In this document: positions 3,557-26,425 of the stretch, one piece after another
How positions within the stretch are numbered: the stretch's first letter is position 1
How the letters are laid out: every line of letters begins with the position of its first letter
Origin: Gammaproteobacteria bacterium bin55
GTDB lineage: Bacteria > Pseudomonadota > Gammaproteobacteria > Pseudomonadales > Azotimanducaceae
Direction of reading: 5' to 3'
DNA length: 57,749 nucleotides
Assembly: GCA_002238665.1 (NCBI GenBank)
Contig: MPMU01000003.1
Coordinates: 1-57,749, forward strand
Made by a program: the position numbers and the translations under genes
Notes under the pieces: generated by a model
The model's input: the letters and a program-made list of their open reading frames with translations, nothing else
What the model was told of the DNA's origin: nothing
The model's database searches: none

Positions 3557-6130
3557 ATGGCATCAATCCAAACCACGCCGATGATGCGGCAATATCTAGC
3601 CATAAAGGCAGAGCACGCCGATGTGTTACTGTTTTACCGGATGGGTGACTTCTATGAGCTCTTCTTTGAAGATGCCAAAGAAGCTTCTGATCTGCTTGAA
3701 ATCACGCTGACCAGTCGAGGTCAGCACAACGGTCAGCCAATTCCGATGTGCGGTGTGCCATTCCATTCGATTGGTCCCTACCTAAAAAAGTTGGTGCTAC
3801 TTGGCCGTTCGGCTGCAATTTGCGAGCAAGTCGGTGATCCTAAATTAGCTAAAGGCACTGTGGATCGAGAAGTCCAACGAATTATCACCCCCGGCACGCT
3901 CATTGAAGAAGACCTGCTGAACGAAGTGCAGGAAAGTGTCTTACTGTCAATCTGCTCAATTACTAAAAAACAACATTCTCTGGGTTTAGCTTGGCTCAAT
4001 CTATCCACCAATGTGCTCAAAGTAGGTGAGGTCAAAGAGTCTGAACTTCAAGCTTTTATTTCGAGGGTTAACCCCAGCGAAATACTGATTCGCGAGGGAT
4101 ATGAACTAGGTATAGCTTCGGTTCCCGTACAGGCGCTGGATGCCTTCCAATTCGACGAGGACCTCGCAATTCGAGCTCTGAAGTCACACTTTCAGATAGC
4201 AGATCTTGCAGGCTTATCCCTAAACGATAAGCCTCTCGTCTGCGGCGCAGTTGCAGCCTTGCTCGACTACGCCAAACACACGATCCGTCAGCCGATGAAC
4301 TTTGTCGATACCCTCGAATGGGAACATTCGGCAGATCACATCTATATGGATGCACAAACACGTCGTGACCTGCAACTCACGGAAAGCAATGGACGTGTAA
4401 CTTCCGACGGTACCTTAGCATCGACAATTGACCATACGCAAACCCCGATGGGTAGCCGCTTGCTAAGAGAATGGATCAGTGAACCTACCACAGACCTGAC
4501 GGTAATCAATCAACGACTTGATGTCGTGGGAACTATTCATAACTCTCAGGTTGTGGACCGAATTCAATCACGACTTAAGCAAGTTGGCGATCTACAAAGG
4601 ATGACTACTCGTCTGTCACTCTACACTGCAACGCCTAGAGACCTGAACCGCATGGCTCATGCCTTGAGAATGTTTGAAGAGCTTCGTAGTGAAATTGCAA
4701 ATCTTGAGATATTGCATGAACAGGCACGGTTTAACCAAGTCACTGATGTCAGCGAAATTGCAGCATCGATCGAAAAGGCAGTGGTAGATAGCCCTCCGGT
4801 GACGATCCGAGAAGGCGGCATGATTCGAGCTGGTTTTAATCAAGAGCTCGACGGGTACAAGGATCTAATTCAGAACTCCAACCAAAAGTTGCAACAAATT
4901 GAAGCTAATGAACAAGCTCGAACCCGTCTCAAAAATCTAAAAGTTGGATACAACCGAGTCCATGGTTACTACATTGAACTGCCAAAATCTGTCAGTAACC
5001 CATTACCCGGCGAATATATTCGTCGTCAGACGCTGAAACATCACGAGAGATACGTCACCGCAGAGCTACGCAAGTTTGAGGAGCAAGTTCTATCCGCCCA
5101 CGCAAATTCGCTGAAATGCGAAAAGGAGGTTTGGCACCAGCTTGTCAACAGTCTTCAAGGACATTGCCCTGTCTTTCGTCTAGTAGCCAATCTCCTAAGC
5201 CGGTTGGATGTTCTGTGCGGATTTGCAATGCTTTGCACACGATTTCAGCTATGTAGGCCTATATTCGTTTCTAATCCTCTAATCGATATTCGAGACGGCC
5301 GACACCTCGTCGTAGAAGCAGAACCAAACATACAGTTTGTACCCAACAGCATCGTACTTAATCCGACTCGAAAAACACTAATTATTACTGGTCCAAACAT
5401 GGGAGGAAAATCCACCTATATGCGACAGACTGCTCTGAACGTGATCCTTGCATATAGTGGTTGTTTCGTACCCGCGAGCTACGCAACATTGGGACCGATT
5501 GATCGAATTTTCACTAGGATCGGTGCACAAGATGATCTCACAGCTGGGAGATCCACCTTTATGGTCGAAATGAGCGAGACGGCCAACATCCTGCACAATG
5601 CGACGCAGAAATCACTGGTATTACTTGACGAAGTTGGACGGGGAACCAGTACCTACGACGGCCTAGCGCTAGCTTGGACCATTGCAGAAGAACTTGCAAA
5701 GCGAACCGGTGCATTCGTTCTGTTTGCTACCCATTACTTTGAAATGACAGCCCTTGCGGAAGAACACGGGCAAGTCCATAACGTGCATTTTGACGCCGTC
5801 GAACATGGTAACGAAGTGGTTTTTCTGCACAATGTACAGGATGGTTCAGCATCAAAAAGCTATGGTATTCAGGTCGCCAAGTTAGCAGGTATCCCGGGAC
5901 GAGTAACGAGAAAGGCGGTAAACCGTCTACATATGTTGGAGGCGAATGAAGCCGTTAATAAAAATCCTTCTGGTGAGATATTTAGTACACCCGAACCTGT
6001 CGTCAGTCCATTCGCAGACGAGATAATTTCTGAATTGGAAGATGTCGATGTGGATTCCCTCACTCCCAGGGATGCATTGCTTCTGATCTATTCCCTAAGA
6101 GACAAAATTGCAGAACAGAATAAGGAGTAA
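3557..6130 (+). CDS. mutS: DNA mismatch repair protein MutS
   Basis: MutS recognises mispairs and signals to MutL using ATP. The mismatch-inserting F-Y-E motif is at 32-34, the Walker [10 protein letters not shown] at about 612-620, followed by [14 protein letters not shown] (Walker B/signature) and the helix-turn-helix ATPase dimer region. The length of 857 residues is normal. The ATG at 3557 gives the expected N-terminus (TPMMRQYL), although AAGG sits only two bases before it. It leads a run with an aminotransferase-like gene 9 bases downstream. Confidence 0.97.
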
Positions 6131-9204: not shown

Positions 9205-10053
9205 TTAATCCGTCATCATTTCACGCGGATTGATAGTCGCCCCGTTTTTCCATACCTCAAAATAGAACTGGTCGTAAGCGTTGGCACGCGGTGCAGATGG
9301 ATTGGTTGGCTTATTGATGGTAGCTATGACCTGCCCTTTCTTGATCTGACTGTTCTCTTCTACTTGAATATCTGAGTTGAATTCATAGGCAATCACGTAC
9401 CCTTTTGGTGTCGTCGTAATCACGATGTGGCGATAGGTCCCAAGTCCCTGCTTGGCGTAGATGACCTTGCCATCGGTTACTGCACGAATTGCGGTTTCAT
9501 CCTTGAGCTGATAGGCATAGCCTCGCTTCGAAACTCCAAATTCCTGAATTGGCGTTTGATCGACTGGCCATTGCCAACCACCTGATTGCGCTCGAATTGC
9601 TGCATTTGTTGCCGGTTTTGCAGGAGATGGCGTAGCTACCTTCTGTGCACGATTGGTACTTGGAGCGGGTGCAGGTTTAGATGTGGGTGCCCGAGTTGGT
9701 TGTGTCGGGACAGCAGCTGGTTGTGTATGAGCTGGGGCTGGTACGGGCTTTGGTGGTGTAGGCCGTTGTTGTACAGCTGGTGCAGGCGGATTCTTTCTAG
9801 GAAAATAGACTACCTGTCCAACACTTAATGTATAAGGCGGCGCAAAGTTGTTGTAGACCGCAATCTCATTGACTTTGAATCCTCTAGTCGTAGAGATGCT
9901 ATAGAGTGTTTCGCCTTTTTGAACTTTATGCGGCGCGTAATCTTGAGTAGGTTGAGCGTGTGCGAGATTTGAAGGCACCTCTAAAACGCAAACAACAAGA
10001 GCTACTGTGAACGCGCTTGTTATGTACCTAAGTAATCTTCCTTTGTCTTTCAT
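9205..10053 (-). CDS. nlpD: NlpD-like LysM/LytM (degenerate M23) cell-division protein
   Basis: It has an N-terminal signal peptide (cleavage likely after AHA), one LysM domain at about 42-86 (HKVQKGETLYSIS), a Pro/Ala/Thr-rich linker (about 88-155) and a C-terminal LytM/M23 domain. The zinc-ligand histidines are missing: YEFNSD replaces the usual Y-H-N/Y-H-L region and FYFEVWKNG replaces LHFEIRRNG. It should therefore be a non-catalytic amidase activator, as known for NlpD/EnvC. Unlike E. coli NlpD there is no lipobox. Its start overlaps the popT 3' end by 26 bases. The position next to truD and fdxA fits nlpD. Confidence 0.85.
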   Translation of the reverse strand: MKDKGRLLRYITSAFTVALVVCVLEVPSNLAHAQPTQDYAPHKVQKGETLYSISTTRGFKVNEIAVYNNFAPPYTLSVGQVVYFPRKNPPAPAVQQRPTPPKPVPAPAHTQPAAVPTQPTRAPTSKPAPAPSTNRAQKVATPSPAKPATNAAIRAQSGGWQWPVDQTPIQEFGVSKRGYAYQLKDETAIRAVTDGKVIYAKQGLGTYRHIVITTTPKGYVIAYEFNSDIQVEENSQIKKGQVIATINKPTNPSAPRANAYDQFYFEVWKNGATINPREMMTD

Positions 10054-10900
10054 AGAACAGAACCGTCATCATGACTAAAAAACTTCCTGCCATAAGTGTA
10101 ATCACTCGAATGTTCTGCCACACATCAGAATCGTAATTAGGCAGAAATATTTGGTTTGATTCTTGCTGCCATGGCCAAACTTGGAGCAGACTACCTAGTA
10201 AAAGCCCGCAAAAAACCGCGACAATCTGATGTCGATGTGATTTGAGCCATCGCTTTAGATACTTTGGTACTAACAATATTGAGACGATCATGCCAAGGAT
10301 AAAAGAGCTAATCAGGTCAATTTGGAACTCTGCAAACGCATTAATCATGACTACCCAGATTCCTAGTATCAGCAACATTAGAGAACCAGAAACACCTGGA
10401 AGAATCCAAGCAGTAAAAGCAAAAAATCCACCTACAAAAATCAACCAATACGAAGGAGCGCTCTGTTCAGAGTGTCCAATGTTCAGCCAAAATATCCCAA
10501 GGGCGAAAAGCAAACCTACGACACCGTATGTCAGCAAATACCTAACGCTTGAATCTCTAGCCATCTGAACAACCGCACCTGCCATCAGTCCGAAAATAAG
10601 CGCAAGCACCTCAACTGCGTAATCGTCTAGCAGACGGTTGATCAAAAAGATCATCAGCGCTACGCCTAGAAGCATTCCAATCCCAAGCGGTAAAAGAAAC
10701 GGAAGTGCTCCTCGAATGCCTAGCCAGACATCCAATACTTCCGTTCGAGACAGCTTTTGAGGTACGCAACTGGCTATTGAATCTACCAAACGAACATAGA
10801 TTCCCGTGATGTACGCAACGGTACCACCTGAAATGCCTGGCAGAATCTCTGCGATTCCCATGAGGAATCCTTTTAGAAAAACACTGATATGAGATTTCAT
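10028..10900 (-). CDS. popT: DUF368 / PopT-type polyprenyl-phosphate transporter
   Basis: This multi-pass membrane protein begins MKSHISVFLKGFLMGIAEIL and contains the DUF368 signature PGISGGT near the N-terminus and a second, similar PGVSGS near the middle, which is the internal repeat of this family. Members have been reported to flip undecaprenyl phosphate back across the inner membrane. I prefer the ATG at 10900 because it overlaps the truD stop as ATGA. A longer start at 10936 lies inside truD. It occupies the slot where surE and pcm lie in Pseudomonas. Confidence 0.8.
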   Translation of the reverse strand: MKSHISVFLKGFLMGIAEILPGISGGTVAYITGIYVRLVDSIASCVPQKLSRTEVLDVWLGIRGALPFLLPLGIGMLLGVALMIFLINRLLDDYAVEVLALIFGLMAGAVVQMARDSSVRYLLTYGVVGLLFALGIFWLNIGHSEQSAPSYWLIFVGGFFAFTAWILPGVSGSLMLLILGIWVVMINAFAEFQIDLISSFILGMIVSILLVPKYLKRWLKSHRHQIVAVFCGLLLGSLLQVWPWQQESNQIFLPNYDSDVWQNIRVITLMAGSFLVMMTVLFYERQRKIT

Positions 10901-11874
10901 GCGAGACTTAGATTTTGCGTGACCATCCCTAGGCATTCAGGTTGCACAATTTCATGTAAAACAGTGGTTGCATAACATCCTGAGAGTAAGTCGAATTCAA
11001 GCGTTAAGTGCGATCCGTCAGTAGCAACTTTCAGGTTATCTGTTTCACAAATCAATGACCTTCGTTCTTGATTCAATCCCGACCACTCCAGGATTTCAGT
11101 GATTGGCGCATGTGAGTCCCCAATGTTCTGTTCCAGCTCACCGACCAATTCCGTAGTTTGCAGTCTCCCTCGTCCCCACAAGGGACCAGTGGGTAAATTC
11201 TCGCCACTTGGCTCACCTTCTTGCAATGAAGACCATGTATCCTGCTTAACCCGTTCTGCTAGCACAGCATTGAATAGATAGGCGCGCAAACTCGAGAGGT
11301 ATATACCCTTCAGAAATCGCTGCTTTCTACCTCTTATCCAATCCTTCTTCCGGAGTGCATTCTTGAGATTTTGCCCCTGTTTTCCAAACCTTTGCGCCCC
11401 GAAGTAGTTCGGTACCTTTCTCAGCGCATCGATGTTGGGTTCGGAGGTTACATCTCTCAACAGGATGCGAAAGTGATTGATTGCAACATCGCCTATACGT
11501 AGTTTTTTCGTGTGGTACGCTTGCTTGAGTACTCGTACACTGCCGTTAGTGAACGAACCGATTGCTTCAGTTTTCGGTAGGCGAACACTAAACCACTGTC
11601 TACATACCGCGTGACGATCTTTCATTCCCGCGTAGCCGACATCTACTAGCGGTACTTGGTAAATCCGGGCTAAGTCAGTTTGTACGTCGCGTGTATTGGT
11701 GTTGGTTTTCTCAATGTACAGGTACAGGTGTTCACCTTCTCCAGATAGTTCAAATCCCAGAGATTCTTCAACGCAGAAATCGTCAGGTTGCTGCTTAAAT
11801 TTCGCTCGAATTAGAGGTGCAGAAGAGGCGCGAATCCAATCTTCGCTCCAAACATACTGATCTTGAGAGATCAC
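10897..11874 (-). CDS. truD: tRNA pseudouridine(13) synthase TruD
   Basis: TruD converts U13 of tRNA-Glu to pseudouridine. The family motif GYAGMKDRHAVCRQWFSV holds the catalytic aspartate, and NYFGAQRFG and the N-terminal FKQQPDDFCVEE are also diagnostic. The length is 325 residues, slightly short of the E. coli protein. It starts 8 bases after the eno stop, directly replacing the usual ftsB-ispD-ispF interval. Confidence 0.95.
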   Translation of the reverse strand: MISQDQYVWSEDWIRASSAPLIRAKFKQQPDDFCVEESLGFELSGEGEHLYLYIEKTNTNTRDVQTDLARIYQVPLVDVGYAGMKDRHAVCRQWFSVRLPKTEAIGSFTNGSVRVLKQAYHTKKLRIGDVAINHFRILLRDVTSEPNIDALRKVPNYFGAQRFGKQGQNLKNALRKKDWIRGRKQRFLKGIYLSSLRAYLFNAVLAERVKQDTWSSLQEGEPSGENLPTGPLWGRGRLQTTELVGELEQNIGDSHAPITEILEWSGLNQERRSLICETDNLKVATDGSHLTLEFDLLSGCYATTVLHEIVQPECLGMVTQNLSLA

Positions 11875-11882
11875 GTAGCACT

Positions 11883-13154
11883 CTACGATCCTGCATACAC
11901 AGGATTTTCTAGCTCCTGATTGATCTGGAGGAGTCGGTTGTATTTCGCAACGCGTTCGGAACGACTCATTGAACCAGTCTTGATTTGACCAGCGCTGGTG
12001 CCTACCGCCAAGTCTGCGATAGTAGTGTCTTCTGTATCACCAGATCGGTGAGAAATTACTGTACCTAGGCCATGAGACTGAGCTATTTGAATGACCTCTA
12101 AAGTCTCCGATAAAGTACCAATCTGGTTTAACTTAATCAGAATCGCATTAGCCCACCCATCTGCTATCCCACGATTCAACAATCCAGGATTGGTGACAAA
12201 CAAATCATCTCCCACCAGCTGCATTTTCGATCCCAAAGCTTGATTTAGCTTCTTCCAGCCTTCGTAGTCAGATTCATGAATCCCATCCTCAATCGAGGTT
12301 ATGGCTGGAAACTGACTTGAAATTTCTTCCATCTCGTCGATCCACTCTTCACGGGTGAGAGTCCTATTCTGGGATTCCAGTCGATAGTGACCATCCACAA
12401 AGAACTCCGTAGCGGCGCAGTCCAAGGCTAGATTGATTTTCTCACCTAATTGCCAACCACTGCGTTCGATGGCAGTAATTAAGAGTTCAATAGCTTCAAT
12501 ATCCGAGCTCAAGTCAGGTGCAAACCCACCTTCATCTCCGACAGCGGTGGAAATGCCTTTCGAAGCGAGATTCTGCTTGAGTGTGTAAAAAATCTCCGCA
12601 GCAGCTTGAACCGCTGTCGAAAAATCTTCTACTCCTGAAGGCACAACCATAAATTCTTGAATATCTACGTTGTTGTTCGCATGTGCTCCACCATTCAATA
12701 CATTAAGCATGGGCACAGGTAGCGTCATCGGCGGGTTCCCGACCAAATCATTGATGTGTCGATACAGAGAAAGACCTTTACTTGCCGCAGCCGCATGAGC
12801 GTTTGCCAGAGAGACACCCAGGATGGCATTCGCGCCCAATCGAGCCTTGTTGGGTGTTCCATCCAGATCGCACAGTGTTTTGTCAATCTCGGCTTGGTCC
12901 TCAACCGATTTACCAACTAGCGCACCTTTGATCTCTTGAGTGATACCTTGTAGAGCTTTGCGGACACCGCGTCCTTGAAATCGACCGGCATCCCCATCTC
13001 TCATCTCGACTGCTTCCAAACTTCCTACCGAAGCACCCGAAGGGACTAAAGCCGAGCTCTTATGACCATCGCTGGTCGTTACTGCGGCGAGGATCGTTGG
13101 ATTTCCACGTGAGTCAAAAGCTTCAATCCCATTGACATCGACAATCCGGCTCAT
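11883..13154 (-). CDS. eno: Enolase
   Basis: Enolase interconverts 2-phosphoglycerate and phosphoenolpyruvate. [21 protein letters not shown] and SHRSGDTED contain the metal ligands and catalytic lysines. The N-terminal loop reads [10 protein letters not shown] where most enolases have SGASTGxxEA, a small deviation. The length of 423 residues is normal. It overlaps kdsA by four bases (ATGA), indicating coupling. ftsB, which usually follows eno in this class, is absent. Confidence 0.96.
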
Positions 13155-17003: not shown

Positions 17004-20000
17004 TTAACTGCTCGATTTGTAATCAACCCAAACGGCGTGGGGACTCAATATTTGAGCGAGCTCAGACAGCAACCCATCGGACATTGAAACCTTCCAATCA
17101 GCTCCAGCTTTCAGCTCATACTGCTGTTCATCTGTTTCAATGACGAAGGAAAAACCTTTCTTACCTTTGTGCTGTTGCAAAAGATCAGCAACTGCTGAGA
17201 ATTTATCACAACTATCTCCATTGAACCGGACATTTAGTTGCTTACCCCACTTATCCCGGGCTTCTTCAAGAGAAAGCAACTTTCTGCCATTGACACGAAG
17301 TCGACCGTTATTACCGTTGCTTACCTGACATTCAACGACAGCATAATCCAATTCGTTCAATCTCGACTCCGTCTCATCCACATTGTCAAAAAAAGCTACA
17401 TCGCAATTTGCTGCACCATCCTGTAGTGTTGATCTCAGCATTACATTGCCGTTATTCGTCACCACACGGTTGACTTTCACCACTTTTCCGGCGATTCGAG
17501 TGCGCGTACGCCCATTGGTCGGTTTTAAATCTGAAAGGGGATAGTCGGAAATATGTCGACACTCTTCAGAGAAATGATCAGACAAACTGACAGTGAACGT
17601 AAAACTCAAGAGTTTGTTTTCTGTAGAGGCAAGCTCTTCCCAACTCAGGGGTACGACAGATTTGAGGTCAAGTGTCGGAGTCGCTTGATCCTCACCAAAC
17701 AATCCAACCACTCCATTGGCCTTTTGTTTCACCTTTTCTTTTTCGGAGCGCAACCCGAGATTACAACTCTCAATTAGCCAAGCTCTTCCTAAGCAGACAT
17801 CACAGGACTGAGGGTATAACTCATCTAATGCGCCACATTGGATCATTTTTTCAACGACAGATTCGTTGACTTTCTCGAGACTGACACGACTGCAGAAATC
17901 CGCCACATCCTTGTAATCACCGTTCTTTCGTTCTTCAACAATTCCTCTAGCCAGGTCCTCTCCAATACCTTTAATAGTTGCTAGACCAAAACGAATTTTT
18001 CCTTGTTCAGTTGTGAACAGCACGCCACTCTTGTTTACCGACGGTGGCAATATTCGGACATTCACGCGATCCAATTCTCGAAACAAGGAAGCCATTTTGT
18101 TCGCGTCGCTACTGTCAAATTCCGTGGACATGTAAGCTGCCATGTACTCACTGAAAAAATTTGCTTTTAGGTACGCTGTTTGATATGCGACCAACGCGTA
18201 TGACATCGCGTGTGCTCGAGGAAAGGCGTACTCTGCAAATACCTCAATCCTGTGGAACACTTCGTTCGCGATTTGCTCTGAGACTCCTTTTTCTTTCGCC
18301 CCAGAAATGAACTCAGCTTTCGTTTCCTGCATTTTTGCACTGTCTTTTTTGCCCATGGCACGACGTAAGAGGTCAGCTTTACCAAGCGTAAACCCCGCTA
18401 GAGCGCGACTCACGTTCATGACATCCTCTTGATAGACCATCTCGCCGTAGGTCTTGTCAAGCACGGGCTCCAGCAGTGGATGTGGATATATAACCTCTTG
18501 GATGCCTTTCTTTCGATCGCCATAGGATTCGATTGCATTATTCGCCATCGGGCCCGGTCGATAGAGCGCGTTGAGGACACCTAGGTCTTCCAATCTGTCA
18601 GGTTGCAATCTTCGGATCGTGTTCCGCATACCTTCGGATTCAAGCTGGAACACACCGTCCGTGTGAGCGTTTTGGATGAGATCAAAAGTGGTGGTATCGT
18701 CTAATGGCAAGGTATCTAAGTGCACATGTTCATCGGGACTGCGAGACTCGTTAATAGCGGCAAGCGCCCAATCCATAACTGTGAGTGTCTTTAAGCCAAG
18801 AAAGTCAAACTTGACTAAACCAACTGCCTCGAGATCGTCTTTGTCGAGTTGAGCGATCGCGACACCATCGCTGTGCTCCGTATAGAAGGGAACGTAGTCT
18901 TCCAATGGTCCGGGTGCGATTACGACTCCACCTGCATGTTTACCTAAGCCGCGAATCATGCCTTCAATCTGCACTGCTAGATCCATTGCGTCCTGATATT
19001 CAGGGTCTTCGGCGATGAGAGCTTTGAGAGGCTCATTTTCTCTTAAGTGCTCTGCCAAAGTCTGCTTGTTGATCGGCGGTATACACTCTGCCAATCGCGA
19101 TCCTTCGTGGGGCTTCATTGCCAGATGCCTGAATGCATCGTGAATGACTGAACGAGCTCCTAACGAGTTAAAGGTCACTATCAGACCTACACGATCACGT
19201 CCGAATAAGTCGATGATGTAGTTAATGACTTCGCCACGTCGTTGCTGGCAAATATCAATATCAAAATCAGGTAATGACACTCGATCAGGATTTAGAAATC
19301 GCTCAAAAAGCAGGTCTAACTCAAGAGGATCCAGCATGGTAATGTCAAGTAGGAGCGCAACCAGTGACCCTCCCCCAGAACCTCGACCGGGGCCGACCGG
19401 AATTTTTTGTTCCTTCGCCCAAACCACGATTTGGTGAACAATGAGAAAATAGTCCGCAAAACCCATCGAATTTATCGTCGCGAGCTCCGACTCTAATCGC
19501 TCACGGTATGCGCTTTCTGGAAACTGTAGGTTGTCCCCTTTTTGCTCAATGTACTCACTCAACGCTACCTTTACTTTCTCAGTTAAAACGTTTTCTGCAG
19601 AATCTTCGAGATCAGTCAGTTTCGGCAGATGCACCTCTCCTGTAGGAAGAATGAGATTACATCGCTTGGCTACCTCAACAGCATTGGCGAGCGCATCTGG
19701 CAGGTCCGCAAATACTTGCTGCATTTCTTCTGAGGAGCGGAGGTACTGCTGATCAGAGTACTTTTCTCGCCATTTATCGTCCTTTCTTAAGACAGGATTC
19801 CCTATGCTAATGCGCGCCCCGTGTGCTTCATGCTGATCTGCTTTGATCATGCACACGTCGTTGGTTGCTATCAGAGGTATTCCGAGTTCGTCAGCCAACA
19901 ACACTGCCAAATGGTTGTACCGAGTTTCATCGCGTCTGCCAGTTCGTGAAACTTCGAGATAGAACCGATCCCCAAACGCCTCCTTATATCTGAGTGCGGC

Positions 20001-20456
20001 TTCTCTTGCTTCCAATTCACGATCATCAAGAAGGAGACGCCCGATCTCACCATCCTTTCCGCCCGACAAGCAAATTAGTCCTTCGTTATAGCTCGCCAAC
20101 TTGTGGAAACTAATAACGCCGAGTTTTTCCGCATCCCGATAGGAGTACGAAATCAGCTTCTTGAGGTTTATAAAGCCAACGCCATTCTGTGCAAGCACGA
20201 TGAACCTAGAGGCGTGATCTACGTCTCCATGGTCATCCTGAAGGCTATCGCATCGCAGGTCTGCACCTAATATAGGTTTTATCTGATTTTGTCGACATGC
20301 CTTGTAGAACTTCAACATGGCAAACATGTTGCCTAAATCGGTCAACGCTAGAGCTGAAATACCCCTCTCTCGAGCGGCATTAGCTAATTCATCAGGTCGA
20401 ACCACGCTATCTGCGACAGAAAAATGGGTATGAATGGAGAGATGCGAGAAGGTCAT
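17004..20456 (-). CDS. dnaE: DNA polymerase III alpha subunit
   Basis: This is the replicative polymerase, 1150 residues. The N-terminal PHP domain starts FSHLSIHTHFSVADS. The palm region contains GPGRGSGGGSLVA and LPDFDIDIC with catalytic aspartates. The beta-clamp-side and OB-fold regions follow. Its ATG overlaps the stop of the broken rnhB copy (ATGA), which shows that the two genes were once coupled. The current promoter must lie in the pseudogene or the insert. Confidence 0.97.
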   Translation of the reverse strand: MTFSHLSIHTHFSVADSVVRPDELANAARERGISALALTDLGNMFAMLKFYKACRQNQIKPILGADLRCDSLQDDHGDVDHASRFIVLAQNGVGFINLKKLISYSYRDAEKLGVISFHKLASYNEGLICLSGGKDGEIGRLLLDDRELEAREAALRYKEAFGDRFYLEVSRTGRRDETRYNHLAVLLADELGIPLIATNDVCMIKADQHEAHGARISIGNPVLRKDDKWREKYSDQQYLRSSEEMQQVFADLPDALANAVEVAKRCNLILPTGEVHLPKLTDLEDSAENVLTEKVKVALSEYIEQKGDNLQFPESAYRERLESELATINSMGFADYFLIVHQIVVWAKEQKIPVGPGRGSGGGSLVALLLDITMLDPLELDLLFERFLNPDRVSLPDFDIDICQQRRGEVINYIIDLFGRDRVGLIVTFNSLGARSVIHDAFRHLAMKPHEGSRLAECIPPINKQTLAEHLRENEPLKALIAEDPEYQDAMDLAVQIEGMIRGLGKHAGGVVIAPGPLEDYVPFYTEHSDGVAIAQLDKDDLEAVGLVKFDFLGLKTLTVMDWALAAINESRSPDEHVHLDTLPLDDTTTFDLIQNAHTDGVFQLESEGMRNTIRRLQPDRLEDLGVLNALYRPGPMANNAIESYGDRKKGIQEVIYPHPLLEPVLDKTYGEMVYQEDVMNVSRALAGFTLGKADLLRRAMGKKDSAKMQETKAEFISGAKEKGVSEQIANEVFHRIEVFAEYAFPRAHAMSYALVAYQTAYLKANFFSEYMAAYMSTEFDSSDANKMASLFRELDRVNVRILPPSVNKSGVLFTTEQGKIRFGLATIKGIGEDLARGIVEERKNGDYKDVADFCSRVSLEKVNESVVEKMIQCGALDELYPQSCDVCLGRAWLIESCNLGLRSEKEKVKQKANGVVGLFGEDQATPTLDLKSVVPLSWEELASTENKLLSFTFTVSLSDHFSEECRHISDYPLSDLKPTNGRTRTRIAGKVVKVNRVVTNNGNVMLRSTLQDGAANCDVAFFDNVDETESRLNELDYAVVECQVSNGNNGRLRVNGRKLLSLEEARDKWGKQLNVRFNGDSCDKFSAVADLLQQHKGKKGFSFVIETDEQQYELKAGADWKVSMSDGLLSELAQILSPHAVWVDYKSSS

Positions 20457-20458
20457 CT

Positions 20459-20955
20459 AAATAAAAACTGGTTTACTTCGTGGACAGGTTGGAAACTATG
20501 ACGATGGAGTTTACAAGGTTCATACACCTGCAGTGCCATCTAGTGAGCGCGAGTCGCGTTACCCTTATGTTTGTCGACTCCATAGACTGGAAAGAAACGA
20601 CTTGCATCTCGCATGTTGTGGTCTCAAGTTACTTTAGCGACGATTGAAGCAGCACTGATTTCTGGAACTGAGCTAGCTCCTTTGATTACCGCTTCACAAA
20701 GATGGTGTCGGTTTAGTGCATGAGTCCCATCGACAAGAACTTTTTTAATTGAACACCTGAGTATTTCGTCAAGAGTAAACATGAACATTGCATAGCAAGC
20801 AATGACGTTTACGGTATTTCGAGCTCCTCATATCCTCCACGGAGGCTTGAGCTACTGCCAATACTCTGCGCGGGCCATGATATCCGCATCAATTTCCTCA
20901 CGAACCCTGCCAGTTAAGACTTTTGACTCATTTAATCCTGTGATCGGTTTACTTT
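20459..20955 (-). pseudogene. rnhB: 5'-truncated, decayed second copy of rnhB
   Basis: The DNA is clearly homologous to the 3' 500 bases of the intact rnhB (24647-25146), with many substitutions and small indels that break the frame. It lacks codons 1 to about 33, including the catalytic D-E of GIDEAGRG. It abuts dnaE: its final codons (..QFLFR, stop) overlap the dnaE ATG. I infer that this is the original rnhB 3' end and that the intact gene now uses a new 3' end supplied with the insert. Confidence 0.85.
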
Positions 20956-21261
20956 TGCGTCGCCAGAAGCCTTCTCTGCGACATGAACGTATTCACGGCC
21001 ACATGCAGGTCAAGTATTCCCATGGTTGTGCGTCACCGATGAATTGATGTCTATAGAAGTATGTCTAATTCAGCCCACAGTTAGAACGCAGGAAAGCTCT
21101 CGCACGATTTGTTGGCGAGGTCGCCGCGGGGAAGAGCGACAACACTCTTTGGTATCGTGGTGTACTTAAATGTACACGATTGTACGTTTTTGTAGATTTT
21201 GCCTCCTTTCTCACATTCTTCGACCACACATTCCATCCAAGATACATGATGGACTACACCT
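20956..21261. other. Non-coding stretch in the rnhB insert
   Basis: No convincing gene. Several short frames exist in both directions, but none has a signal, motif or ribosome site I trust. Confidence 0.4.
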
Positions 21262-21885
21262 TCATCCGTCGTCCGTATTAGTCTCTACGCAATCAAAATT
21301 AGTTCTAGTCTTGAATGGAGCGCCACAAGTCTCAGGATCAGTCTCAAATACTCCGTCGTCGGAGCTCAGCAAATGCCGACTTTTCTTTGTCCGTATATTT
21401 TGCGGTGGACTTTGTTCACTAGATCCTGCGTTCACCTCTAGTTCTAATATCGACCAACTGTGCTCCGCATCATTCGTGAACGCATACAGTCGATCTCCGA
21501 ACATCAGCAATGGATTCACATTTAGGTCAATACCTAGGTTATGGGCATCCAACTCAGGGAACGATGGGTCATCGATTCGAACCGAACCCTGGAAAATATG
21601 AGAATCCGAGATTGCACCAGCACTGTTCTTCTTCAGGACAATGCTACTAGTCCCGTACCTAAGGACGAAGCTACAAACGCCTTCACAGACTTCTATAGAG
21701 TCCGATATCCCGCTATCGAGATTTAACGAATAAAACCAAACAAAAGATGTAACAAGGCTGGCTTGCCTCTCCGGAGCTTGATGAGCTAGAAGATCTTTCT
21801 CCTCAGCCGCGTTAATGGCATCGCCTGACCCAGCCATAGTAATGTATGGAATAGCTGTGAAGAGAAATGCGGATCGTATCAGCAA
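21262..21885 (-). CDS. Exported protein of unknown function
   Basis: The protein has 207 residues and an N-terminal hydrophobic stretch (LIRSAFLFTAIPYITMAGSG) that looks like a signal peptide. The rest is polar with several cysteines and no family I recognise. The start is a TTG at 21885. The frame stays open upstream without an ATG, so the start is uncertain. It is the last of three genes in the rnhB insert, all pointing the same way. Confidence 0.45.
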   Translation of the reverse strand: MLIRSAFLFTAIPYITMAGSGDAINAAEEKDLLAHQAPERQASLVTSFVWFYSLNLDSGISDSIEVCEGVCSFVLRYGTSSIVLKKNSAGAISDSHIFQGSVRIDDPSFPELDAHNLGIDLNVNPLLMFGDRLYAFTNDAEHSWSILELEVNAGSSEQSPPQNIRTKKSRHLLSSDDGVFETDPETCGAPFKTRTNFDCVETNTDDG

Positions 21886-22270
21886 ACCTATTCTTGACCT
21901 ATACGTTTGGTCTTTTCCTAATAGTTGATTAGGTGAAATGCGATGTCCCGCTCTACTCTGACATTTTTTCGATGTCTGATTTGTTTTTCAATTGTTTGGC
22001 TCATACGGTAAGAGCCTTTAATTTAGTACTCCAAACGGAATCCCACAAATAGCCTTTACTGCCATGAGCATTGAAGACATTGACACATCCTTAGTATACC
22101 CATTAGGCTAGGAGATATAAGTACCAAACCTCTTTGAAAGCATGCAGAATCTCAGTCCGTAAGAGTTCAAATTCAGAATTCTCGCAATTGATTTTGTGGT
22201 TTAGGGTATTGTGAATGTGACGCTGGTCTCAGACGTCGCAACGTTCGATGGTCCTTTGAGCCATAGACCA
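21886..22270. other. Intergenic stretch in the rnhB insert
   Basis: No gene seen. An inverted repeat GATGGTC...GACCATC (22247-22272) lies at the end of the gene ending at 22271. Without a T-run it is only a weak terminator candidate. Confidence 0.35.
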
Positions 22271-23584
22271 TCAGTTGGCATCAAGCGCGTGAGAAGTCAA
22301 CTCAGTTGTTTGCATCTCTATGCCTAGATCGGCAGTACGGTAGATCAAGATGCTATGTTCTTTGGGTGAACCCGGAACCTTTCCACTCACCACGAACATG
22401 CTACCTTCGTGGGAGAAATCGAAGGTGCCTTCTTCTATATTGGTGTCGAACTGTAACAGGAGTTGTGCCAGATTGGGCTGTAGTCTATGAATCATGACTG
22501 TTCCTGAGGAAGTCCAAGAAAGTACGAGATCCGAGGATTGTGGGAAGAACGTCACTCTATTAGGGTGTCCTACGTATGTTGTTGAATCTTTGTAAAAAAC
22601 CCAGCGATGTGTTTCTTCTAGACTGTTGGTGTCATATATCACACTATAGACATCGGTCGGCTCTTCAAGAGGGTGAGCTATCGGCCAGAGGAAGACGAAA
22701 CGAGACTGATCGCGAGATAACGAAAATCCCCTCGTAGTGAGAGGTCCGTCCTTAGACAATAAGAGCGTGTTCTCCCGACGAGATTCTCGTCCGAACAAGC
22801 GAGATAACAGACTTCGTTTCGTTGTATTCCCACTCTCATATACAGACACTATTCGCGCGGACCCTGGATTGTCTGCTCTTTTACCCGCTTCTCTAGATAC
22901 AAGAAATGCATCTTTCTCGCGTAATTTGTAATAAACACTGATTCCTGTTGGCACAGGATGGTACTCTTGCATCGGTTCGGTGCCGTCTATACGGACCTTG
23001 AACAACGTACTTTGGCTGGAATAGTCTCGACTCCATCGTACACCCAAGACGTATAGTCCGTCGTCGGAAAATCGCAAGCCACCGTAGTTTCCTTTCTTCA
23101 GCACTAGGCTTGATAAGGGGAGACAGCTGGACGTATCATAAACATATGGAATATAACTTCCTTTTACACCGAGATTTAGATTGCGCCATAAACGATCTCT
23201 CGAACGTATTGTGGGGGTAAGAACTAGGAGTTTCGTACCATCGGGTGAAAACTCTATATAAAATGGTCTGCCTTGGCTATCCCATCGACATCGAATCTCG
23301 CCAGTACCGATTTCCCTGAGGGTTATTGACGCATTCTGAGAACCCATGCCATGATTGATATAGGCGACGAGGTTCGTCGCCTGTGAAATATTCGCGAAAA
23401 TTGTTTGTTCATATTCTGACCAATGGATGATGGGCAGAATTTCAGTGCGAATGTTCGCATGTAAACCTACACTAATGGTCAGTACGCTAAACACATAAAG
23501 GACCTTTCGTACAACGGAAGATACGCGTACACGATCTTCCGTCGTATCGAATGTTAGAGGTAGTCTACTCGATATTCGAGGCAC
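22271..23584 (-). CDS. Exported beta-propeller (WD40-like) protein, unknown function
   Basis: The protein has 437 residues. A signal-peptide-like segment at about 25-43 (VRKVLYVFSVLTISVGLHA) follows a 24-residue N-terminal extension. The mature part has repeated blade-like phrases (FYIEFSPDGTKLLVLTP, LRFSDDGLYVLGV, SLSRDQSRFVFLWP, FDFSHEGSMFVVSG), typical of WD40/PD40-like propellers. I see no catalytic motif. It is 12 bases downstream of the thrombospondin-repeat gene and probably in one transcript with it. Its role is unknown. Confidence 0.6.
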   Translation of the reverse strand: MPRISSRLPLTFDTTEDRVRVSSVVRKVLYVFSVLTISVGLHANIRTEILPIIHWSEYEQTIFANISQATNLVAYINHGMGSQNASITLREIGTGEIRCRWDSQGRPFYIEFSPDGTKLLVLTPTIRSRDRLWRNLNLGVKGSYIPYVYDTSSCLPLSSLVLKKGNYGGLRFSDDGLYVLGVRWSRDYSSQSTLFKVRIDGTEPMQEYHPVPTGISVYYKLREKDAFLVSREAGKRADNPGSARIVSVYESGNTTKRSLLSRLFGRESRRENTLLLSKDGPLTTRGFSLSRDQSRFVFLWPIAHPLEEPTDVYSVIYDTNSLEETHRWVFYKDSTTYVGHPNRVTFFPQSSDLVLSWTSSGTVMIHRLQPNLAQLLLQFDTNIEEGTFDFSHEGSMFVVSGKVPGSPKEHSILIYRTADLGIEMQTTELTSHALDAN

Positions 23585-23596
23585 GAATCGACCTAC

Positions 23597-24019
23597 CTAT
23601 CTCCCACCCCCAGCAGGGACGAAAATAAGACCTCCAACCAAGCACCCCGCTTCATTGTCACCACTCCCGGGTTGCCAAGCACCTACAGTAATATCTTTAC
23701 CTTCACTATCTTTGCCTAGATATTCAGAACAGTATTTTTTGAGTCTTGATTTATACTCCCACGGATTATTGAAATCCGGGATAGGTAACACGATATCTGC
23801 TGTTTGAAGAAGCTCTTTAAACGCCCATCCTGTATAGTACGAGACCGCATTCCAAGCATCCGCTAGACAATTCCATAATCGACGCCAGCTACACCGCCAA
23901 CACTTGTTGGTTGAATCATTTGGACATATATCTATGTCGTCAGGGATACCGTCTTGGTCTCGATCATTGGCTATGTTTATTCCTGGTCCACCGCCGCCAG
24001 GCATTTGGGCGAAGACCAC
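23597..24019 (-). CDS. Possible exported protein with a thrombospondin type 3-like calcium repeat; signal peptide interrupted
   Basis: From a GTG at 24019 the frame encodes 140 residues: a Gly-rich start, then DRDQDGIPDDIDICPND (a calcium-binding thrombospondin type 3 repeat) and a Cys/Trp-rich part. Upstream in the same frame one reads IGLIAVTYATVILPHSLIPQ, a good signal-peptide core. It is preceded by a TAA stop near 24103 and then MNLMQMLVISCTRFV. So either translation begins at a non-standard codon or the gene is broken by a nonsense change in the signal peptide. Confidence 0.45.
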   Translation of the reverse strand: MVFAQMPGGGGPGINIANDRDQDGIPDDIDICPNDSTNKCWRCSWRRLWNCLADAWNAVSYYTGWAFKELLQTADIVLPIPDFNNPWEYKSRLKKYCSEYLGKDSEGKDITVGAWQPGSGDNEAGCLVGGLIFVPAGGGR

Positions 24020-24625
24020 ACTACCCGAGTTATCGATGAGGCGTTGAGGTATGAGAGAATGTGGCAGGATGACTGTAGCATAAGTGACAGCAATGAGTCC
24101 AATTTAGACGAAACGCGTACAGGATATTACGAGCATCTGCATTAGGTTCATGAAATGCTGGAAGAACCGTACATGAATATGTGTTGACGGGTTTTCCTTT
24201 TGCAACATTTCGAACATGAACTTCTCCTTAGAAAAAGGTTTAGTTTGATTTGAGATTTACAACTTGAAAAAAGATTACACATCTCGGGAGATATGTCAAG
24301 TATTTTCTGCAAATTTCTTTTGTGTCGGTTGCGCTGACCCACATATAGGTGGATCAGCACAAATCGACGATGAGTGTCGATTGTGCCGCCTCCTGTAATG
24401 TCAAGACTAATTTTTGCGCATCTCTGTCTAGTCCGATCGCTCCGTTCTGAGATAGCATCTACTCGTCACCCAGTGATCGTGGGTTTCTGCCAAGAACACC
24501 TGATTGACTCGGTCGTTGATGTAGACAATCATGAAGCAGATCTTCGAAACCTTGTGGCTAGGAATTACCTTCGATTCCTTAAACGAAGAGGCAACGGGAG
24601 CGAGGGAGCTATACCGAAAAAGTAT
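24020..24625. other. Long gap between insert genes and rnhB
   Basis: It contains the interrupted signal-peptide region of the preceding gene (to about 24150), an AT-rich stretch, and an inverted repeat GCTGA.CCAC-6-GTGG.TCAGC at 24333-24358 that could act as a hairpin terminator. No gene is supported. Confidence 0.4.
24333..24358. terminator. Hairpin candidate in the rnhB insert
   Basis: A 10-bp stem with one mismatch and a six-base loop. On the minus strand it lies about 270 bases after rnhB and upstream of the insert genes. There is no strong T-run. Confidence 0.3.
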
Positions 24626-25246
24626 CTAATCAACTGGATAGGCTCGAAATAAAAACTGCTTTGCTTCGTGGACAGGTTGGAAACTATGACGATGGAGTTT
24701 ACAAGGTCCGTACTCCTGCAATGCATTCAAGTGAGCGCGTGTCGCATAGCCCTTATGCTCATCGAATCCGTATTCTGGAAAGAAACGGCTTGCATCTCGC
24801 ATGATGTGGTCTCGAGTCACTTTAGCAACGATTGAAGCAGCACTGATGTCTGGAACTGAGCTATCTCCTTTGATTACTGCCTCACAAGGATGTGGTAGGT
24901 CCGGTGTATGAGTCCCATCAACAAGAACTCTTTGAATTGAAATACCTGAGTATTTCGTCAAGAGTAAACACGAGCGTTGCATAGCAAGCAATGACGCTTG
25001 CAAAATATTGAGCTCATCAATCTCCTCCACGGAAGCCTGAGCTACTGCCCAATATGTTGCGCGGTCCATGATCTCCGCGGCCAATTCCTCACGAACCTTG
25101 GCAGATAAGACTTTTGAATCGTTTAATCCGGTGATCCGTTTTTCTGGATTCAGTACAACGGTGGCTGCCACCACTGGACCGGCTAACGGGCCGCGCCCTG
25201 CCTCATCTATCCCAGCAACGTAATCGTGATTTTCGAGTTTCTTCAC
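24626..25246 (-). CDS. rnhB: Ribonuclease HII
   Basis: RNase HII removes ribonucleotides from DNA and RNA-DNA hybrids. GIDEAGRGPLAGP carries D14 and E15. LVDGTHTPDL (D110) and ISAASIVAKVTRD (D146) complete the D-E-D-D site. The length is 206 residues. The end differs from the decayed copy beside dnaE: after ..QFLFR it continues AYPVD before the stop, reading into the insert. The N-terminal end retains its normal neighbour lpxB (18-base gap). Confidence 0.95.
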   Translation of the reverse strand: MKKLENHDYVAGIDEAGRGPLAGPVVAATVVLNPEKRITGLNDSKVLSAKVREELAAEIMDRATYWAVAQASVEEIDELNILQASLLAMQRSCLLLTKYSGISIQRVLVDGTHTPDLPHPCEAVIKGDSSVPDISAASIVAKVTRDHIMRDASRFFPEYGFDEHKGYATRAHLNALQEYGPCKLHRHSFQPVHEAKQFLFRAYPVD

Positions 25247-25264: not shown

Positions 25265-26425
25265 TTATGAATGTCTTGCTGCATTTAAAACAATTTGCGC
25301 GGCTGTGAAAGCTGCGTTTTTCCGTAATTCTCTATGAATACGCGTGAATGATTCCAACAAAGCAGAATCATCTACCGCATTTTTCATTTCTGTTGTAAGT
25401 GCATGAGCCATTACATCGGGTTCCATGTCTTGTTGAATGAACTCCGGAACAAGCATTGAATTAGACAGGATATTGGGTAGTGCAATGTACTTCGTCTTGA
25501 GCATTGGCGATACCACTCGATAGGTGACCTCTCCTATCCTGTAAGCAACCACCATCGGCGTTTTGAGCAACATGGCTTCTAGTGTAGAAGTGCCTGATTT
25601 CACCAACGCTACATTCGCCGCGGCTAACGCCAACGCACTCTGTTGGTGTATCAAGCGTACTGAGACGTTTTTAATTCCCTTGGCTTTCTCTGTCATCCAA
25701 AGCATCGACTCATCACGCACGACTGGAATGACACACACTATTTTCTTCTTTATCAGTTGAGCAAACTGAGAGCTGGCATCAAGGAACAAATCGAAGTGAA
25801 ACTTCAGTTCAGAGTTTCTACTTCCAGGAAGCACTGCCAAAACAACATCACCAGTTGAGATGGCCAATTCTCTGCGAGCATTCGCCATTAAGTCCTTTTT
25901 CAGAGCGTCAGGATCGTACTGATCTGCTAATGGATGACCCACAAATTCAGCTCTAATCTGACTATCCAGATAGATCTGGCGTTCAAACGGAAACAAGGTC
26001 ATGACCACGTCCGTGGCTTTGCGAATCTTCCTGATTCGACCTTGTCGCCAGGCCCAAACAGAGGGACTCACGTAATGAACCGTCGGAACTCCACGACGCT
26101 TGAGACGAAGTTCGAGCATCTGGTTGAAGAAATTGAAGTCGATACCTACGACCACCGAAACCTCAGCACCAATGAGTTTTCGGACTAATGTTTGAAGATC
26201 TAGATAAAGACTGGGTAAGCGTTTGATCGGCTCTACAAACCCATTGACCGCAAAGCGCTCCATACTTACGATAGATTGAAGACCTTGCTGAAGCATTGTG
26301 TCGCCGCCAACACCGATAAACTCGACATTTTCAGTCTGTTGTCGGATTGCCGACATTAGCGAACCGCCCAGCAGGTCTCCCGAAGATTCTCCAGCTACTA
26401 GCCCGATCTTAAGAGGAGATGACAC
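25265..26425 (-). CDS. lpxB: Lipid-A-disaccharide synthase
   Basis: LpxB joins UDP-diacylglucosamine and lipid X at the inner membrane. The N-terminal VAGESSGDLLGG, the region SPSVWAWRQGRI and VLPGSRNSEL are diagnostic of this GT19 family. The length of 386 residues is normal. It starts 16 bases after the fabZ stop, leaving no room for lpxA, which usually sits between them. Confidence 0.96.
   Translation of the reverse strand: MSSPLKIGLVAGESSGDLLGGSLMSAIRQQTENVEFIGVGGDTMLQQGLQSIVSMERFAVNGFVEPIKRLPSLYLDLQTLVRKLIGAEVSVVVGIDFNFFNQMLELRLKRRGVPTVHYVSPSVWAWRQGRIRKIRKATDVVMTLFPFERQIYLDSQIRAEFVGHPLADQYDPDALKKDLMANARRELAISTGDVVLAVLPGSRNSELKFHFDLFLDASSQFAQLIKKKIVCVIPVVRDESMLWMTEKAKGIKNVSVRLIHQQSALALAAANVALVKSGTSTLEAMLLKTPMVVAYRIGEVTYRVVSPMLKTKYIALPNILSNSMLVPEFIQQDMEPDVMAHALTTEMKNAVDDSALLESFTRIHRELRKNAAFTAAQIVLNAARHS

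Follow-up and report, generated by a model that had tools for sequence, protein, structure and literature searches.

When a prophage of the e14/icd type integrates in the end of a gene, the element restores the 3' end of that gene and the native end is displaced. Here we describe a locus at which rnhB is intact but is separated from its displaced native 3' end, and from dnaE, by a 3.7-kb insert. The locus lies in a 57,749-nucleotide stretch, hereafter the window, of Gammaproteobacteria bacterium bin55 (Azotimanducaceae; assembly GCA_002238665.1, contig MPMU01000003.1, positions 1 to 57,749 of the forward strand). In Escherichia coli, the available part of one report (PMC3240628) states that 56 of 60 recombinants contained a duplication product and that the duplications of the 14 sequenced ones, 109-950 bp long, were attributed to a single crossover of shortened, re-circularised molecules. 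The available text on the yeast WHO elements at FBA1 (PMC7282813) describes a full gene with a new 3' end, cargo, and displaced, decaying 3' fragments of ~400 bp. In transformation merodiploids of Streptococcus pneumoniae, to the extent that the source (PMC3784515) is available, tandem duplications of ~100-900 kb arise by transformation during exchange with repeated DNA.

Read on the minus strand, the order at our locus is lpxB, intact rnhB, a 3,693-bp insert (20951-24643), a decayed 3' fragment of rnhB, and dnaE. The intact gene (24626-25246, minus strand; 206 aa) was identified by alignment and by its Pfam RNase_HII match (8.3e-41). The fragment (20456-20950, minus strand) consists of the last 495 bp of the gene, i.e. 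it starts at codon 36 of 206. Its counterpart in the intact copy is the segment 24644-25141 (minus strand), from codon 36 through the last native codon, and the two align in 498 columns with 84.9% identity (E = 1.25e-157). A separate repeat search recovered the same repeat piecewise, with spacings of 4188-4191. The three gaps between the copies are single-base gaps that all fall in the fragment, which also has three in-frame stops. The insert is thus flanked by direct copies of its target, one of which completes rnhB while the other is truncated at the opposite side. The homology stops at the last native codon. The fragment ends ...CAG TTT TTA TTT AGA TGA, i.e. with the native ...FLFR, and its TGA overlaps the dnaE ATG, so that the ATGA junction is kept; the intact gene ends ...TTT CGA GCC TAT CCA GTT GAT TAG, i.e. 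LFR-AYPVD, the five AYPVD codons (24629-24643, minus strand) being supplied by the insert. Alignment and coordinates confirm what the original prediction had described from the letters of the window, namely a full rnhB, cargo and a 5'-truncated rnhB in this order, the decayed copy abutting dnaE with its stop over the dnaE ATG and the intact gene next to lpxB with an insert-derived tail. Apart from the intact gene, a search of the own assembly (183 contigs, 87.8% complete) with RnhB returned matches to the fragment only, which came up in two pieces, the second of them small.

All nine relatives examined have rnhB directly next to dnaE, the stop of the former touching or overlapping the start of the latter (start codons were read from the sequence), i.e. 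the site of the insert is empty. The ancestral order was therefore gapless, and the fragment beside dnaE is the former native end of rnhB, as originally proposed; the uninterrupted site for which a search had been suggested is present nine times out of nine. Further integrations into rnhB, which had also been envisaged, were not encountered, each of 37 relatives having a single rnhB match. The relatives are distant (~50% RnhB identity, no close strain among them), and we take the named ones to be sponge-derived from their isolate labels. At 42 codons the residues of the two copies differ, three gap codons and three stops counted in; here 29 distinct relatives favour the intact copy 32 times and the fragment 6 times, with 4 ties. 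Over the duplicated segment, the intact copy has a mean identity of 48.5% to the relatives and the fragment one of 37.3%, the fragment being more distant because it has decayed. Two observations had been named that would speak against an integration. One was a simple tandem duplication without extra sequence, which is not the case as the insert lies between the copies; the other was an equal distance of both copies from relatives, and here the distances do differ, yet decay explains the difference. A further explanation is that strain variants were joined during assembly. The assembly is fragmented and no reads were available for a check, but a chimeric join would not produce a frameshifted pseudogene with the ancestral dnaE junction, and the layout recurs in other genomes; we consider an artefact very improbable.

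The explanation that we tentatively and narrowly favour is homology-driven, additive integration by a single crossover. In a donor molecule the cargo would have been joined to an rnhB 3' end from the same strain or one almost identical to it, and one recombination within rnhB (a single crossover, possibly of a re-circularised fragment) would have placed 3.7 kb of DNA bearing orphan genes and insertion sequence (IS) remains between rnhB and dnaE, with ~500 bp of the rnhB 3' end doubled. The upstream copy would then be the working gene, with cargo sequence directly after its last native codon (the AYPVD tail), and the native 3' end would have been pushed to the dnaE side, where it decayed. Another explanation, which we hold to be almost equally probable, is that the insertion itself made the duplication and no donor homology was involved: a break or a stalled fork at the rnhB end would have been repaired by copying the cargo from elsewhere and returning ~500 bp upstream, with template switching or the fill-in of widely staggered nicks as variants.

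The original prediction had also taken the intact gene for a hybrid with a foreign 3' half. If a sequence is duplicated and one copy is neutral while the other is selected, the ratio of nonsynonymous to synonymous divergence (dN/dS) of the pair is expected near 0.5. The rnhB copies give 0.45 (bootstrap 0.27-0.75), and simulated duplication with neutral decay of one copy and selection on the other gives a median of 0.44 (95% 0.29-0.78). In other words, the divergence is as predicted for one duplicated sequence and plain decay of one copy, and the hybrid is not borne out. Comparison of the two parts of the gene, by relatives and by codon use, had been put forward as a check, and revealed nothing unusual. 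RnhB identity to relatives is 63.2% in the 5' part and 48.5% in the 3' part, and the resulting ratio of 0.77 lies within the 0.74-0.90 found among the relatives themselves, four of 29 being as low. Third-position G+C content is 48.6% in the 5' part (35 codons, too few to judge) and 41.6% in the 3' part, the neighbours having 46.7% (dnaE) and 45.5% (lpxB). Apart from the five-residue tail, these comparisons give no support to a foreign segment in rnhB; they would be compatible with a donor that belongs to this strain or a close one and has little synonymous divergence.

The same layout was found with other genes and other cargo, at loci L043, L138, L158, L160 and L233 of this genome and at L194 and L262 of congeners (gene names without Pfam support are our readings). 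L043 and L046 were selected for their resemblance to the insert. At L043 (contig C106) an intact mnmC has a 2.7-kb insert on its 5' side, beyond which 472 bp comprising the mnmC 5' end and upstream DNA are repeated with 91% identity. The cargo consists of two genes (11471-12675, G000:C106) near an IS1595 transposase fragment, one coding for a protein with a Proteasome match and the other for a Panacea-like protein that is below the Pfam cut-off and matches PADLOC PDC-M19A at 1.2e-10. At L046 (C137), a 1.2-kb insert has on both sides a sequence of ~266 bp that covers the end of an acyltransferase gene and the adjoining intergenic DNA (73% identity). An unselected sample of the same genome (530,513 bp) comprised 40 stretches, each taken from the start of a contig and up to 20 kb long, the contigs being picked at spaced numbers. 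Tandem genes, internal repeats and short repeats were set aside in it, and the whole-gene tandem copies at L129, L143, L148 and L163 were left out of the class as a separate kind. Three clear cases of gene, insert and fragment remained (L138 with a TauE-like gene, L158, and L160 with a TPR gene), each with the gene intact and a 3' copy beyond the insert, next to three doubtful repeats (L136, L148, L157). L158 (1474-6538, G000:C80) has an insert with open reading frames (ORFs) of the SLOG cluster 3 and AAA/TniB-like kinds, and the left neighbour matches PADLOC PDC-S11 at 8.4e-116. A sequence of ~130 bp is present three times in this insert. L233 (C79) was selected by its cargo; here the 3' end of an ABC exporter gene is duplicated, the intact copy ending in TTEPAGDPA and the fragment in TTEPVQDREL. 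The same exporter has a second 3' end ~140 bp downstream at L241 (3727-4238, G009:C49; 73% nucleotide identity) and occurs as a whole tandem copy at L249 (G017:C88; 77%).

Among the congeners, 200 kb of G015 contained one case among six direct matches, i.e. L194, where copies of the 5' end of a metZ-like gene flank an insert that encodes a 317-residue orphan (9358-10311). The 340 kb sampled from G009 likewise contained one case (L262) out of seven repeats with at least 70% identity, the other six being 65-103 bp long and not inspected. At L262 (13449-15727, G009:C60:120001-140000) an insert with a Uma2 putative endonuclease follows an Nramp gene. Past it comes a second copy of ~178 bp of the Nramp 3' end, which directly adjoins the end of a gene that we read as SCO1-like. 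In 200 kb of G006 none of the 34 matches, mostly long or internal and not inspected individually, was judged to be of this kind, and the nine dnaE loci of relatives (160 kb) contained two repeats at 68-69% (not inspected) and none higher. These figures do no more than suggest an enrichment of such structures in this genome. As the structures occur at other genes of this bacterium and in two relatives, DNA may have been added at gene ends in this manner repeatedly and not in a one-off event.

The dN/dS values of ten pairs were tested against simulated duplication and decay. Eight fall inside the simulated range: rnhB (0.45), L160 (0.53), L138 (1.09), L233 (0.41), L194 (1.09), L227 (0.30), L236 (0.34) and L262 (0.28). 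L158, at 0.11, is far below it (0 of 1000 simulations were as low), so its copies diverged while both were functional, which means that one of them was imported. The mnmC pair of L043 has 0.18 over the 126 open codons (17 of 1000 as low) and 0.24 over all 142 (38 of 1000). Judged by these ratios, L158 alone among the ten pairs clearly needs an imported allele, and mnmC is a marginal case. An imported allele is thus indicated at a sibling locus, which gives some backing to the kind of mechanism originally proposed, the single-crossover integration of a circle with an rnhB 3' segment; rnhB itself has no signal of such an allele. Since mnmC is marginal, we gave less weight to the crossover and more to template switching: insertion that itself duplicates the gene end would account for nine of the ten pairs, eight by self-duplication and decay and mnmC with a marginal departure, but would not yield the L158 pair.

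The positions at which the homology ends point in the other direction. In five of the six 3'-end cases (rnhB, the ABC exporter gene, the Nramp gene, L158 and L160) it ends at the stop codon or within ~20 bp of it; the exception is the TauE-like gene of L138, where the repeat breaks off 72 bp inside the gene and another, weaker one is present past the stop. Such ends would be expected under a crossover, because the donor gene end is then followed by donor-specific DNA, and they are left unexplained by duplicative insertion, with which the variable length of the duplications is in accordance. In the less similar pairs, the coincidence with stop codons may be partly due to faster decay of non-coding DNA. 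Single crossover can thus explain the self-like pairs (by a near-identical donor), L158 (by a diverged donor) and the ends at stop codons.

At the intact-gene side of the insert there is a 150-bp sequence, R2 (24487-24636), with a 78% counterpart on contig C106 (L043, 10393-10545). It lies ~8 bp from the duplicated rnhB end, and its counterpart ~5 bp from that of mnmC. R2 is adjoined by R1 (24288-24490, minus strand), the remnant of the 3' end of a Mutator/IS256-type transposase gene whose copies are dispersed in the genome; the copy in L041 matches Pfam Transposase_mut at 2.2e-18. In addition, a 39-bp match to the IS end adjoins the L138 repeat. Together with the IS1595 fragment in the L043 insert, these positions would suit a tandem duplication mediated by a junction IS, i.e. 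unequal exchange or replicative transposition between sister chromosomes, after which the IS decays and cargo is added later. No insert was found to have an IS end at both edges, however, the pieces of R2 have no Pfam match, and four R1 copies (L042, L044, L045, L048) lie in stretches in which no flanking direct repeats were seen; we regard this origin as unlikely. For the same reason R1, a dispersed remnant present also where repeats were not seen, was rejected as the element's own end. The layout of an IS or a composite transposon is not found either, as the IS256-type remnant is on one side only and the repeat measures ~498 bp. R2 could not be assigned to a known protein, and its 28-bp match to a genome of the same family, in a gene read as a phosphoesterase, is probably due to chance. 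A large tandem duplication followed by loss was discarded as well: blastn self-comparison of the insert shows the rnhB repeat only and no copy of dnaE or lpxB.

The insert contains ORFs A, B and C, all on the minus strand. ORF A (21262-21885; 207 aa) has a homolog in the L138 insert, between the repeats of the TauE-like gene (29% identity, E 9.7e-16), and a genome search with that homolog found the L138 and window copies only. ORF B (22271-23584; 437 aa) is an orphan, with no match in Pfam, PADLOC, plasmids or 292 other sampled genomes of the order; a plasmid origin was rejected after zero tblastn matches among 72,556 plasmid records. ORF C (23597-24019; 140 aa) has a weak TSP3-like stretch below the cut-off. 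The G+C content of the insert (45.2%) is near that of the window (46.8%), so composition does not show foreignness, and a foreign origin is suggested by position and orphan content. Two segments of the insert, 22039-22106 and 23557-23628, match contig C155 (L047, 9548-9616 and 8268-8333) at 83% and 74%. The native neighbours are lpxB upstream (25265-26425, minus strand; Pfam LpxB 5.5e-95) and dnaE downstream (17004-20456, minus strand; Pfam DNA_pol3_alpha 1.8e-87). Elsewhere in the window, 1608-1691 and 2260-2343 form an 84-bp direct repeat, 75% identical and 652 bp apart.

No integrase was recognised by Pfam among the four insert ORFs scanned, and the flanking repeat (~498 bp at 85%) is unlike the short att repeats of a site-specific element or prophage. 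A gene-end-replacing homing element of the WHO kind would consist of a cargo endonuclease that drives insertion at the 3' end of a gene and brings its own gene end. It would share the layout of full gene, cargo and 3' fragment with the yeast elements, as far as the available text (PMC7282813) describes them, and the L262 cargo is a Uma2 putative endonuclease. In the rnhB insert, however, no nuclease family was recognised (ORFs A, B and C have no Pfam or PADLOC nuclease match; a fold search was not made), rnhB has no signal of a foreign allele, and no second rnhB integration exists in the 37 relatives. A homing element is therefore, in our opinion, highly unlikely.

The family of the L194 orphan, whose Sel1 matches are weak and below the Pfam cut-off, was found in 10 of the 18 genus genomes. 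It is multi-copy and sometimes tandem (L194, L129, L233, L236 and others), and from our reading of the N-termini its members are apparently secreted. Twelve loci of the family were fetched with their flanks. The cargo lies between direct repeats at three of them, namely L233 (end of the ABC gene), L236 (a repeat with no Pfam match that we read as an IS) and L227 (a repeat inside a Sel1-like gene). It does not at L228, L229, L231, L235, L237 and L238, and the stretches of L230, L232 and L234 end too near the cargo to show flanking repeats. At L233 and L194 one cargo family thus lies between repeats of different host genes. Duplicative insertion is in accordance with this, as it is with the dispersal of cargo paralogs in the genome.

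Several points weigh against integration by crossover. The rnhB pair and seven more of the ten fit self-duplication and decay and require no foreign allele. Beyond the L158 fragment lies a defence-like gene at the contig end and not a demonstrated native backbone, and L158 may be another kind of structure. A donor strain with the cargo next to rnhB was not found, the assembly is fragmented (183 contigs), and the occurrence of one cargo family beside different host genes (L233, L194) would require several donor arrangements. As for the route of entry, homology-facilitated illegitimate recombination by transformation would require machinery for natural competence. The Pfam Competence (ComEC) model gave one match in the 18 genus genomes, covering 40 of 270 positions in a congener, and none in the own genome (87.8% complete) or the other 16 congeners; the model matches 10 of 14 control genomes, and divergent forms could be missed. 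Ku was found in 0 of the 18 genomes. Classical transformation is doubtful because ComEC occurs only as this fragment, Ku-based joining is doubtful as well, and repair by duplicative insertion is consistent with these findings. Nevertheless, integration by a single crossover, with a circular form as a possible donor, is the reading that we prefer by a narrow margin.

Long gene-end duplications that accompany an insertion are known from laboratory crosses. Here they seem to have arisen repeatedly outside the laboratory, affecting unrelated genes and at least three genomes of a single genus. In each structure the decaying fragment can serve as an internal clock, and the constraint between the copies as a test of where the sequence came from; with both it can be asked how small pieces of DNA that have no recognised integrase enter genomes that yielded no complete ComEC domain. 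As the altered C-terminal tails show, conserved genes are also edited in such events, in this case rnhB next to dnaE. Literature searches on gene-fragment-flanked islands, long target site duplications in bacteria and sponge symbionts returned no report of the pattern as judged by titles and the beginnings of abstracts, which is no proof of absence.

Compared with prophages of the e14/icd type, the rnhB insert has no recognised integrase. The S. pneumoniae merodiploids (PMC3784515), as described in the available text, resemble our structures in that the duplication arises during the exchange with the repeated DNA, but they are formed by transformation and are far larger, whereas the ComEC domain was found here in one genome out of 18, and there as a fragment only. 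The yeast WHO elements (PMC7282813), according to the part at hand, have the same new 3' end and displaced, decaying fragments; they differ in having one target gene where we see several, in the homing endonuclease that was not recognised in the rnhB insert, and in not being bacterial. It is conceivable, although rather improbable, that a bacterial counterpart with many targets exists, i.e. genus-wide, integrase-free mobile cassettes that join host gene ends. Each cassette would carry or create a copy of a few hundred bases of its target end, replace the last codons and displace the native end, thereby spreading orphan (some Sel1-like), defence-like or Uma2 nuclease cargo. The single-crossover (Campbell-type) insertion-duplications of the E. 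coli pJA2 integrants (PMC3240628) differ in that ours are natural, old and decayed, affect several genes, show no foreign allele signal at rnhB, and would have had a donor and a circular form that we infer. In the available description, however, the pJA2 insert has, as ours does, a completed gene on one side and a truncated copy of that gene's end on the other, and the 109-950 bp of its duplications compare with ~178-498 bp at the eight structures with an intact gene that we describe.

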